Shown: piece by piece, positions 32,589 to 38,328 of the stretch
Position numbering within the stretch: the stretch's first letter is position 1
Layout of the letters: each line of letters starts with the position of its first letter
DNA from: Stutzerimonas kunmingensis
GTDB lineage: Bacteria > Pseudomonadota > Gammaproteobacteria > Pseudomonadales > Pseudomonadaceae
Direction of reading: 5' to 3'
Assembly: GCF_002929225.1 (NCBI RefSeq)
Contig: NZ_PISM01000018.1
Location: 248,001-312,000, forward strand
Length of the DNA stretch: 64,000 nucleotides
Position numbers and translations under genes: made by a program
Notes under the pieces: model-generated
What the model was told of the DNA's origin: nothing
Seen by the model: only the letters and a program-made list of their open reading frames with translations
Database searches by the model: none

Positions 32589-35432
32589 TTGGACAAGATT
32601 CTGATTCGTGGGGCCCGCACCCACAACCTGAAGAACATCGACCTCACCCTGCCGCGCGACAAGCTGATCGTCATCACCGGCTTGTCCGGTTCTGGCAAAT
32701 CATCGTTGGCATTCGACACTCTCTACGCAGAAGGCCAGCGCCGTTACGTCGAATCGCTTTCGGCGTATGCGCGCCAGTTCCTCTCGATGATGGAAAAGCC
32801 CGACGTCGACACCATCGAAGGGCTCTCCCCGGCGATCTCCATCGAGCAGAAATCGACCTCGCACAACCCGCGCTCCACCGTGGGCACCATCACCGAGATC
32901 TACGACTACCTGCGTCTGCTCTATGCGCGGGTCGGCACGCCGCGCTGTCCAGATCACGATGCCCCGTTGGAAGCGCAGACGGTCAGTCAGATGGTCGACC
33001 AGGTGCTGGCACTGCCCGAAGGCCGCAAGCTGATGCTGCTGGCCCCGGTCATCCGCGAACGCAAGGGCGAGCACCTGGCCGTGTTCGACGAACTGCGTGC
33101 TCAGGGTTTCGTGCGCGCCCGCGTCAACGGGCGGCTGTACGAGCTCGACGAGCTACCCAAGCTGGACAAGCAGAAGAAACACTCGATCGACGTGGTGGTG
33201 GATCGCTTCAAGGTTCGCGGCGACCTGCAGCAGCGCCTGGCCGAATCCTTCGAAACGGCGCTCAAGCTGGCCGATGGCATCGCCCTGGTCGCCTCCATGG
33301 AAGAGGACGACGACAGCGAGGAAATGATCTTCTCCGCACGCTTCGCCTGCCCGATCTGCGGCCACTCGATCAGCGAGCTTGAACCCAAGCTGTTCTCCTT
33401 CAACAACCCAGCCGGCGCCTGCCCCACCTGTGACGGCCTGGGCGTGAAGCAGTTCTTCGACGCCAAGCGCCTGGTCAATGGGGAGCTGACCCTGGCCGAA
33501 GGCGCCATACGCGGCTGGGACCGGCGCAACGTTTACTATTTCCAGATGCTCGGCTCACTGGCCTCGCATTATGGCTTCAGCCTCGACGAGCCTTTCGACT
33601 CACTGGCCGCCGATCATCAGAAGTCCATCCTGCGCGGCAGCGGCCGTGAGAATGTCGAGTTCCGCTACCTCAACGACCGCGGCGATATCGTCAAGCGTTC
33701 GCACCCGTTCGAAGGCATCGTTCCCAACCTGGAACGCCGCTACCGCGAAACCGAGTCCAATTCGGTTCGCGAAGAGCTCGCCAAATACCTCAGCACCCAG
33801 CCCTGCCCGGACTGTCGCGGCACGCGTCTGCGCCGCGAAGCACGCCACGTGTGGGTTGGCGACAAGACCCTGCCTGCGGTCACGGCCATGCCCATCGGCG
33901 ACGCCACCGACTACTTCGGCGTCCTCTCGCTCAGCGGACGACGCGGCGAGATCGCCGACAAGATTCTCAAGGAGATCCGCGAACGCCTGCAGTTCCTGGT
34001 CAACGTCGGCCTGGATTATCTGACCCTGGATCGCAGCGCCGACACCCTGTCCGGCGGCGAAGCCCAGCGTATTCGCCTGGCCAGTCAGATCGGCGCCGGC
34101 CTGGTTGGGGTGATGTACATCCTCGACGAACCTTCGATCGGCCTGCATCAGCGCGACAACGAACGCTTGCTGGGCACCCTTCGCCACCTGCGCGACATCG
34201 GCAATACGGTGATCGTCGTGGAGCATGACGAGGATGCGATCCGTCTCGCCGACTACGTCGTAGACATCGGCCCAGGTGCCGGCATACATGGCGGCCGCAT
34301 CGTCGCTGAAGGCACACCTGACGAGGTGATGGCGCACCCGGATTCGCTGACCGGCAAGTACCTCTCTGGTCGGGTAAAGATCAACTATCGGCCTGAGCGC
34401 ACCCGCCGTGATCCGAAGATGCTGCTCAAGCTCAAGGGCGCGCGGGGCAACAACCTGCGCAACGTCGACCTGGAGATTCCGGTAGGCCTGCTCACCTGCA
34501 TCACCGGTGTGTCGGGCTCGGGCAAATCAACGCTGATCAACAACACGCTGTTCCCGATCACGGCGACTGCACTCAATGGCGCGACCACGCTGGAAGTAGC
34601 CCCGCACGACAGCTTCGATGGGCTGCAGCATCTGGACAAGGTGGTGGACATCGATCAGAGCCCGATCGGCCGCACCCCGCGCTCCAACCCGGCGACCTAC
34701 ACGGGGCTGTTCACGCCGATTCGCGAGCTGTTTGCCGGCGTGCCGGAAGCGCGCTCACGCGGCTACGGTCCGGGCCGCTTCTCTTTCAACGTCAAGGGCG
34801 GACGCTGCGAAGCCTGCCAAGGCGACGGCGTGATCAAGGTGGAAATGCACTTCCTGCCCGACATCTACGTGCCCTGCGACGTATGCAAGGGCAAGCGCTA
34901 CAACCGCGAAACGCTGGAGGTGAAGTACAAGGGCAAGAGCATCACCGAAGTGCTCGACATGACCATCGAGGAAGCCCGCGAATTCTTCGATCCGGTGCCG
35001 GCCGTCGCGCGAAAACTGCAAACGCTAATGGATGTTGGGCTGTCCTACATCAAGCTGGGGCAGAGCGCGACGACCCTCTCTGGCGGTGAGGCGCAGCGCG
35101 TCAAGCTGTCCCGCGAGCTGTCCAAGCGTGACACGGGCAAGACGCTGTACATCCTTGATGAACCCACCACCGGCCTGCATTTCGCCGATATCCAGCAGCT
35201 GCTCGACGTACTGCACCGTCTGCGCGACCACGGCAATACGGTCGTGGTGATCGAGCACAACCTCGACGTCATCAAGACGGCCGACTGGCTGGTGGATCTC
35301 GGCCCGGAAGGCGGCTCGAAGGGTGGCCAGATTATCGCCTGCGGTACGCCGGAAGAGGTGGCAGGCATGGCCCAGTCTCATACCGGTCATTTTCTCAAAC
35401 CGTTACTCGAGCGCGACCGCTCGGCGGGTTGA
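32589..35432 (+). CDS. uvrA: Excinuclease ABC subunit A
   Basis: Damage-sensing ATPase of nucleotide excision repair, 947 residues. Start TTG at 32589 with GAGG six bases upstream; it gives the invariant [19 protein letters not shown]. Walker A sites are GLSGSGKSS (near 35) and GVSGSGKST (near 640); zinc modules [21 protein letters not shown] and [22 protein letters not shown]; two LSGGEAQR signatures ([14 protein letters not shown] and [14 protein letters not shown]). Full length, no defect. No proper LexA box lies in the 131 bases before it. Confidence 0.98.
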
Positions 35433-35542
35433 TCATCGCGTCGGCAGCCGTTTCGGCAACAAGCGCAAGCGCAGCGGGGTCCACTACGGATCCCGCCGGG
35501 CAGTTGGGCGGGACACTCTCAGCCCGACAAGGAGAAATCCTG

Positions 35543-36798
35543 ATGCGAATTGCGCTTGCTGCCTGCCTGCCTGCTTGGCGCCGGCCTGCTACCCTGTCTC
35601 GCCGCTGCCGCCCAACCCAACGGCCCTTGGATCACCAACGAGCAGAACGTCTCGCTGGAGGCGTTCATGAGCAACAACCAGCTGTACGATCAGCTCAACG
35701 CACTTTCACGACGCTTCCCGGATGCCCTGCGACTAGAACAGGCCGGCAGCAGCAACGAAGGCCGGCCAATCTGGCTGGCCAGGCTGGGTAATTCAGACAA
35801 ACCAGCCGCAATGATCACAACCCAACAGCACGGCACCGAAGCGGCGGTCAATCTGATAAAACGCCTTGCCTCGGGCGGGGGCCTTGTCCCGCCAGGTACT
35901 GGATAATCTGCAGGTGCTGATCGTGCCGAGGGTTAACCCGGACGGCGCCGAGCGTTTCAGTCGCGGCAACATGGATTTCAGCGCCCCGCAAACCAGCGCT
36001 GACTGCCTGCGCGCCGATGGCACCCTGAATCCTGCCAAGTTGGATCAGCACCTCGGCGCCAACGTGACCGCCTTCACCAATGCCTACGGCCAACGCCAAT
36101 TTAGCTACGACATCAACCGCTACCACTGGACAGACTGGAGCAAGAGCACGCAGATACGCTGCAATCCAGGCCTGGCCAGCGAGCGGCACTTCAACCCGGG
36201 GCAGAACCCGGTGCCCGAAGCGGTTGCGGTACGCGGCATCTATGACCGTTACCGTCCCATCTGGCTGGTAGATGTGCACAATCAGAACCCTGCCGTGGTA
36301 CTCGAGGATGTGGATCCTGAAGTGAACCGCCCGGACCGCCAGGTGACCGGCTCTATCACCTGGCCAACTCACCCGGATGTCGCCCCGGAAGCGGTAGCAC
36401 TGTCGAAGCACCTGGCAATCGTGATGAAGCAGCGCTCCACGCAGCTTGGCTTCATGGAAATCACCAACTACTACTATGAGCACCCCAACGGCGATGTCCG
36501 CCGCGGCGGCGGCGATCCAGACATTGCCCGAAACGCATACGGCCTGCTGGGGACCGAGCGACTGGCCGCCTGCGAAACAGGCCCATTGGGCGGCAGCGTG
36601 CTCATGGAAATCGGCGGATTGAACAGTCGCGGCCAGAAGTCTGTCGGCATGCTGCGCAACAATGTGCGTGAAATGCTTGAGGCCGTGCTTGTCGCAACTG
36701 CCGACGGTAGCCTGACGGCGATCGATCCGGCAGAGGCCGATCGCCTTCTGCCACTCGGACAGGAGAGCGATAAGCCGCTCAACAATCCCCACGAATAG
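35543..36798 (+). pseudogene. M14 zinc carboxypeptidase, two frameshifts
   Basis: A secreted peptidase of about 415 residues is split over three frames. AAGGAG at 35529-35534 and ATG at 35543 start MRIALAAC; after the CTGC tract (35559-35574) the sense continues one frame later as LLGAGLLPCLAAAAQPNG, a complete signal peptide if one CTGC unit is removed. That frame runs to 35906 and includes the zinc motif HGTE in TTQQHGTEAAV. At the G5 run 35877-35881 sense shifts again (LASGG then ALSRQVLDNLQVLIVPRVNPDGAE). The rest is intact: zinc His in WLVDVHNQ and catalytic Glu in VLMEIGGLNSRG, ending at 36798. Either a decaying gene, a phase-variable one, or assembly errors. Confidence 0.82.
35559..35574 (+). 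repeat. CTGC tetranucleotide tract, four units
   Basis: (ctgc)x4 lies within the signal-peptide codons of the M14 peptidase gene. Three units would keep the ATG at 35543 in frame with the mature protein; four put it out of frame. Tetranucleotide tracts at 5' ends are a known slippage form, though four units is short. Confidence 0.8.
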
Positions 36799-36867: not shown

Positions 36868-38328
36868 TTATACCGGCACTTCCGACAGCGGAATATCCAG
36901 GGCGGCGGCAATACCTGCTCCGTAGGCCGGATCAGCCTTCAGGCAGTGGTTGATGTGGCGAATCTTGATATGACGCGCCACTCCCTGCATCGACCGAGCG
37001 GTATTTTCGAACAACCGCTGCTGTTCATCGGCCGTCATCAAGCGGAACAGGTTGCCCGGCTGAGTGAAGTAATCGGCGTCGTCGGCACGGTAGTCGTAAC
37101 GATCCGCCGCCCCCTCGAGCGCCAGCGGTGGCTCGCTGAAGTCAGGCTGTTCCTGCCACTCGCCATAGGTATTCGGCTCGTAATGCAGACGACCGCCCTG
37201 ATTGCCATCTACGCGCATGGCACCATCGCGATGGTAGCTGTGGACCGGGCAACGCGGAGCGTTGACTGGAATCTGATGGTGATTCACCCCCAGCCGGTAG
37301 CGTTGCGCATCCCCGTAGGAGAAAAGACGGCCCTGCAACATACGGTCTGGAGAGAAGCTGATGCCCGGAACGACATTCGCCGGCGTGAATGCCGCCTGCT
37401 CGACATCCTGGAAGTAGTTGTCGGGATTGCGGTTGAGTTCGTAATAGCCGACCTCGATCAACGGGTAGTCAGCATGCGGCCAGACCTTGGTGAGGTCGAA
37501 CGGATGGTACGGCACCTTGGCGGCGTCGGCCTCTGGCATTACCTGCACATACATCGTCCAACGTGGATATTCGCCACGCTCGATGGCCTCAAACAGATCG
37601 CGCTGCGAACTCTCCCGGTCATTGGCAACGATGGCTGCCGCCTCGCCGTCGGTGAGATTCTTGATGCCCTGCTGGGTCCGAAAGTGAAACTTCACCCAGA
37701 AACGCTCGTTGTTCGGACTGATGAAGCTGTAGGTGTGCGAACCGAAACCGTGCATATGGCGGTACGACGCCGGAATGCCCCGATCGCCCATGACATAGGT
37801 GATCTGGTGCAAGGCTTCAGGCAGCCCGGTCCAGAAGTCCCAGTTGTTGTTCGCGCTGCGCATGTTGGTGCGCGGATCGCGTTTTACTGCGTGGTTGAGG
37901 TCCGGAAACTTCAGTGGATCGCGGAAAAAGAACACCGGCGTGTTATTGCCCACCATGTCCCAGTTGCCTTGCTCGGTGTAGAACTTCAGGGCGTAACCAC
38001 GAATGTCGCGCTCGGCATCGGCGGCACCACGCTCGCCTGCGACGGTCGAGAAGCGCGCGAACAGTGGAGTGCGTTTGCCGATCTCGGAAAACAGCTTGGC
38101 TTTGGTGTAGCGGGTGATGTCATGGGTGACGACGAATTCTCCGAACGCCCCCGAGCCCTTCGCATGCATTCGCCGCTCCGGAATGACTTCCCGATCGAAA
38201 TGAGCGAGCTTCTCCAGAAACCATACGTCCTGAAGCAGCATGGGACCACGGCGGCCCGCGGTCATGGAGTTCTGGTTTTCGGATACCGGCGCACCGGCAA
38301 CGGTTGTGAGCTTCGGCTTGTCAGTCAT
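36868..38328 (-). CDS. katA: Catalase KatA (small-subunit, haem)
   Basis: Breaks down hydrogen peroxide. 486 residues, the size of clade 3 catalases. Distal His in [16 protein letters not shown], catalytic Asn in [13 protein letters not shown], and proximal haem Tyr in [22 protein letters not shown]-binding-type residues [14 protein letters not shown] follow. Start ATG at 38328 with AAGGAG nine bases upstream. In PAO1, as I recall, bfrA sits between uvrA and katA; here the broken peptidase gene occupies that spot. Confidence 0.97.

Follow-up and report, generated by a model that had tools for sequence, protein, structure and literature searches.

Within the 64,000-nucleotide stretch of Stutzerimonas kunmingensis DNA that was analysed (hereafter, the window), a gene on the forward strand at 35543-36798 encodes the signal peptide and catalytic domain of an M14 zinc carboxypeptidase in a frame that is broken, as seen from a profile match and from alignment, and the question raised by this locus is whether the break reflects a switch, an error or a loss. 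A first-pass annotation of the letters alone had described a gene broken twice and had favoured on/off switching of a secreted peptidase through a CTGC tract, with recent decay and assembly error as the other options.

The ATG of the gene is at 35543 and is preceded, 8 nt to its 5′ side, by the ribosome-site-like sequence AGGAG (35530-35534, forward strand), as the annotation had described; the terminal stop of the sense frame is at 36796-36798. Intact relatives of the gene have 421-422 codons, and the ATG frame in the window ends after 82. The upstream neighbour on the same strand is an open gene that we take to be uvrA (32589-35432), and the downstream neighbour on the opposite strand is an open gene that we take to be the catalase gene katA (36868-38328). 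A G+C-rich stretch, GGGGTCC...GGATCCCGCCGGGC, lies between uvrA and the peptidase gene at 35476-35513 and appears by eye to be similar across many of the aligned relatives; it is possibly a terminator or a regulatory element.

Peptidase family M14 (PF00246) comprises zinc carboxypeptidases such as carboxypeptidase T, A and B. In a Pfam profile search with the PF00246 cut-off at 21.6 bits, the half at 35550-35903 scored 32 bits and the half ending at 36795 (35866-36795) scored 22.7 bits; both halves of the domain recognized in the annotation are therefore significant matches to the family profile. Neither half matched an NCBIfam model at E 0.1. One intact relative (L018) aligns with solved M14 enzymes through HxxE and NPDG, and M14 structures are the top matches (TM-scores 0.4-0.65, rmsd 7-11) of a low-confidence predicted model of another intact copy, that of the MAG isolate CAL (L004, genome G004). 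A genome-wide PF00246 search at E 0.001 for a second M14 gene that might serve as a replacement matched just the two halves described here.

Relatives were collected by scanning a single genome for each species, which gave 17 loci, and by a search of 56 genus genomes, which found the gene in 16. The resulting alignment holds 21 copies: the window, eight relatives of its clade and 12 others, seven of them from the same genus and five from further away. The alignment excludes an archaeal copy with 31% identity (L020) and counts each genome once; several of the relatives are draft or metagenome assemblies.

Both repeats named in the annotation, a (CTGC)4 tract in the stretch coding for the signal peptide (35559-35574) and a G5 run (35877-35881), are present on the forward strand. 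Alignment to the intact relatives bears out that they represent insertions of +4 and +1, each a shift of +1 (mod 3) and neither repairing the other, and that the projected frame has no stop codons besides these two frame breaks. The tract is pure and rare: shuffling gives an expectation of 0.01 (CTGC)4 per window, and at least three CTGC units occur genome-wide at this tract and at one other place (three matches, two of them overlapping in the tract). The comparison with sister strains that had been proposed found the extra CTGC unit, and likewise the extra G, in the window alone among the 21 aligned copies, both as seen in a single assembly. The eight clade relatives have G4, and the CTGC tract is of the usual length in 19 of the 20 aligned relatives; in the remaining relative, DSM 25974 (L014), it is one base short. 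The sampling behind these counts comes close to a single genome for each species, with two further genomes from the species of the window. A TTG at 35550, situated 15 nt from the AGGAG, opens the post-tract frame with a signal-peptide-like start, so the tract lesion alone need not be absolute. Rescue of the gene by this start was considered and rejected, because it bypasses the tract only and that frame stops at 35906.

The count of two breaks missed a third lesion. By alignment, 15 bp are missing in frame, with the junction at 35828/35829 (forward strand), between the near-direct repeats CACGGcaaCGAACCT and CACGGCACCGAA. The deletion takes out residues 95-99 (HGNEP) of the HxxE zinc motif, which are invariant in 13 of 13 intact relatives compared; these proteins read QQHGNEPHGTEA here, with HGNEPHGTE in the place where the window has HGTE (within QQHGTEA). 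HGNE (H95/E98) aligns to the zinc motif HARE in a carboxypeptidase B of known structure, and H95, E98, H249 and E359 are all invariant in the 13 intact relatives. The window retains H249 and E359, presumably the distant zinc ligand and the catalytic E of the family, and carries the neighbouring HGTE in place of the deleted stretch. With the second HGxE now standing where the first used to be, the window read by itself gives no sign of the loss. The earlier statement that all zinc and catalytic residues are intact is thus literally correct, but it overlooks that the first HGxE is deleted and the second substitutes for it. Since the predicted model of the intact CAL copy is poor (mean pLDDT 54.7, with residues 95-97 under 50), we argue the effect of the deletion from conservation instead, on which basis it would impair the activity of the putative enzyme.

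A 15-bp gap at the identical place is found in four of the eight clade relatives: 7850S (L011), 28M-8 (L016), UBA9188 (L017) and PX_067 (L019). The junction reads AACGA in 7850S and UBA9188 and ACCGA in the window, 28M-8 and PX_067, so the deletion may have arisen more than once or may have been shuffled between strains. All five copies that carry it also contain a frameshift, and one of the four copies that lack it (CAL) is open; given this distribution, the 15-bp deletion may have been a founding lesion.

The remaining lesions, scored against an intact 421-codon relative, differ widely between strains. To the +4, 15-bp deletion and +1 of the window, the clade adds a +1 and a 3-bp deletion in AW-1 (L010); a single -1 in Stutzerimonas stutzeri BAL361 (L012); 3-bp and 15-bp deletions, a -11 and a +9 in the complete chromosome of 7850S; -1, -1, +1, a 3-bp deletion and a further -1 in DSM 25974; -4, the 15-bp deletion, -1 and a 3-bp deletion in 28M-8; the 15-bp deletion and -1 in UBA9188; and -4, the 15-bp deletion and -83 in PX_067. 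Only the CAL copy (L004:2668-3930) is free of lesions and is the sole open full-length copy in the clade. Eight of the nine clade copies are therefore broken, through 11 distinct frameshifting indels. Every one of these eight has a frameshift outside the CTGC tract, and in six of them the tract is unaffected. Outside the clade, all 12 copies are open with no indel within the first 421 codons, and yet their protein identity to CAL goes down to 71%. In the CAL copy P86 and G115 are replaced, two residues that all 12 intact outside copies and the other eight clade copies retain. A GGC/GCG tract at window positions 36503-36514 varies in frame among relatives (+9 in 7850S, -3 in 28M-8).

No nonsense codon occurs in the projected frame of any of the 21 copies, and decay through nonsense mutation was accordingly set aside. 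This absence is not surprising, because relaxed substitutions are few and by computation only ∼3% of single-base changes placed at random in the open CAL gene would create a nonsense codon.

The two flanking genes served as controls. In the nine clade members, neither uvrA (947 aa in the window, 851-857 in seven members and 249 in UBA9188) nor katA (486 aa) contains a gap. If the 11 indels are placed by length over the three genes, the chance that all fall in the M14 gene is ∼8e-8, a value to be read as an order of magnitude only, since the full-length uvrA was used and the 11 events were treated as independent. The decay option of the annotation is supported by frameshifts at other places, 11- and 83-bp deletions and the 15-bp gap in clade relatives whose flanking genes are clean.

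Substitutions point the same way. The mean dN/dS of the M14 gene is 0.266 within the clade (36 pairs) versus 0.069 among the seven intact genus copies (21 pairs), these and the following values being pairwise means without a formal test. The flanking genes give 0.014 in the clade and 0.024 outside for uvrA (247 codons), and 0.038 and 0.022 for katA (473 codons; five of the seven outside copies). On these values, short distances as such do not account for the rise in the M14 gene, and amino-acid constraint on it is weaker inside the clade. The clade values rest on few substitutions: 101 sites of the gene are variable there, 69 of them singletons. At the 227 positions that are invariant in the 12 intact outside copies, the window has seven changes and five further positions missing; clade members change two to seven such positions, with four changed in the open CAL copy. 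In a leave-one-out control, the seven intact genus copies change one to nine invariant positions at much greater synonymous distance, so that the window's seven changes are not extreme as a raw count.

With frame-breaking lesions, intact homologues elsewhere and a raised dN/dS, the window gene fits a pseudogene under relaxed constraint. We conclude that the locus is very probably an early-stage pseudogene of a secreted M14 carboxypeptidase that was lost repeatedly in one Stutzerimonas lineage and stayed intact in more distant relatives, and that this decay was probably driven by slippage. Several lesions lie at short repeats, namely the CTGC units, the near-direct HGxE repeats, the GGC tract and G, C and A runs, and the short ones would have arisen by replication slippage or by misalignment of short repeats, slippage being what appears to be their simplest cause; others, such as the 83-bp deletion, coincide with no repeat among those examined. 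Loss of mismatch repair found no support as a source of the indels, as MutS and MutL each have one match over the family cut-off, full-length and stop-free, in the genome of the window; a second MutL match is weak and falls under the cut-off. The gene product would have become dispensable or costly in the lineage, and recombination between strains would have shuffled the lesions. A full-length enzyme would not be expected from the window genome.

The wider distribution suggests that the gene is old at this site. In all 20 aligned relatives, other genera included, uvrA lies upstream, and in broad shape the tree of the gene agrees with those of its flanking genes, though each has weakly supported nodes; the gene has therefore probably been present here, by vertical descent, for a long time. 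A protein-level search of ∼3 kb downstream of uvrA found no trace of the gene in 38 of 39 further genus genomes, and a genome-wide search of those 38 was also without a match; one genome that is 71% complete (G021) was left out of this survey. Downstream of the site, the catalase gave a clear match in 31 of the 38, a weak one in one (G049) and none in six. The thirty-ninth genome, G035, a relative outside the window's clade, holds a remnant between uvrA and catalase (G035:C16:36448-36777; L130, L094) in which the two ends are kept and most of the middle is deleted. Mapped on a uvrA tree built from 55 genomes of the genus with one outgroup, the distribution needs 12 separate complete losses, or at least five once nodes under 95% support are collapsed; both counts come from a single-gene tree and assume ancestral presence. 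In an even sample of the family, 20 of 398 genomes, from three of 19 genera, have matches at E 1e-20, a total that takes in the broken copies and the remnant.

Inside the clade, the history is less tree-like. On a tree of uvrA plus katA, the open CAL genome groups with two broken copies (94% support), which indicates that the gene is not dead everywhere in the clade. The same tree pairs 28M-8 with BAL361 (100% support), against the sharing of lesions: 28M-8 has its -4 in common with PX_067 and its -1 at reference position 851 in common with UBA9188. This conflict points to recombination; nodes of the gene tree inside the clade are weak.

One explanation for so many separate losses is that inactivation of the peptidase was favoured, with many independent knock-outs becoming more frequent, each made through whichever repeat slipped first, and open alleles returning by recombination. 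This is a finer version of recurrent decay, compatible with it, and we regard it as possible but doubtful. Many distinct lesions are accompanied by little other divergence, and by a rough reckoning the number of indels exceeds what neutral drift alone would be expected to give at so modest a relaxation of substitution; the departure of lesion sharing from the uvrA and katA tree also fits. In addition, synonymous divergence in the clade is lower for the M14 gene (0.055) than for katA (0.084) or uvrA (0.097), which is opposite to the expectation for a fast-decaying gene and which plain decay leaves unexplained; a recent spread of the gene through recombination may account for it. However, relaxed selection acting on a repeat-rich sequence could produce the same picture, and absence of the gene elsewhere in the genus is what any dispensable gene would show. 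An extension of this idea, in which the gene acts as a slow contingency locus whose scattered repeats (the CTGC tract, the near-direct HGxE repeats, the GGC tract and the G and C runs) offer cheap knock-outs under favoured repeated loss while recombination restores open alleles, seems unlikely to us.

Switching by the tract itself, in which slipped-strand mispairing expands and contracts CTGC units in the signal peptide and so toggles the secreted peptidase, had been the favoured reading, and we now consider it highly improbable. The purity and rarity of the tract speak for it, as does its altered length in two clade genomes (+4 in the window, -1 base in DSM 25974). A precedent is icaC of Staphylococcus aureus, in which a tetranucleotide tract is reported to act as a reversible switch, with variant strains at 4 to 6 units and return of the phenotype upon change back in repeat number (PMC4117637). 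The same study gives a switching rate under 1 in 45,000 divisions and describes reversion as rare (PMC4117637). At our locus, the added unit is seen in one of 21 copies, and the breaks in the relatives show that the tract is not a favoured break point. Moreover, with the TTG start at hand, an added unit might silence the gene only in part. Most directly, the tract is not the sole difference between the window and an intact gene: the +1 shift and the 15-bp deletion would persist after any change in unit number, so the CTGC tract alone cannot switch the gene in this genome, though in an otherwise open allele it conceivably might.

Assembly or sequencing error at the two repeats of an otherwise working gene is just as improbable, for although no other copy has the +4 or the +1, and both fall in tracts prone to slippage, where error is conceivable, an error there would not make the gene ordinary, because the 15-bp deletion and the changes G330D, G347C and P408L are shared with the decayed PX_067 copy, both flanking genes are clean in the same assembly, and relatives from other assemblies are broken too, including the complete chromosome of 7850S with its 11-bp deletion.

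Recurrent decay is thus the reading that we retain. Close relatives display the gene in many different states of loss: one copy is still open, others have between one and four frameshifts or lack 83 bp, a relative outside the clade (G035) retains a remnant, and elsewhere in the genus the gene is absent. The clean flanking genes provide the control, and the set could help to ask whether a secreted enzyme is lost repeatedly through neutral processes or under selection. As a caution, one tract in a single genome is a poor basis for declaring a switch. A literature search confined to open-licence papers found none on this gene in Stutzerimonas or Pseudomonas stutzeri, and because of that restriction the result says little.

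Compared with known systems, the window gene resembles family M14 in its PF00246 matches in both halves, with 4b6z as a solved bacterial relative, and differs in that its frame is interrupted and its zinc-motif loop is shorter. Parallel formation of pseudogenes from dispensable genes occurs in bacterial lineages, and our case is ordinary in kind: many different lesions are spread across close relatives, constraint is weaker and the whole gene is absent elsewhere in the genus. What sets it apart is the striking number of separate lesions, and that those breaking the frame are all indels, several of them at short repeats, with no nonsense codon. It shares with icaC a short tetranucleotide tract in a coding region in which a change in unit number caused loss of the frame; but the icaC variant reverted, whereas the window gene carries two more lesions and its relatives break elsewhere (PMC4117637).
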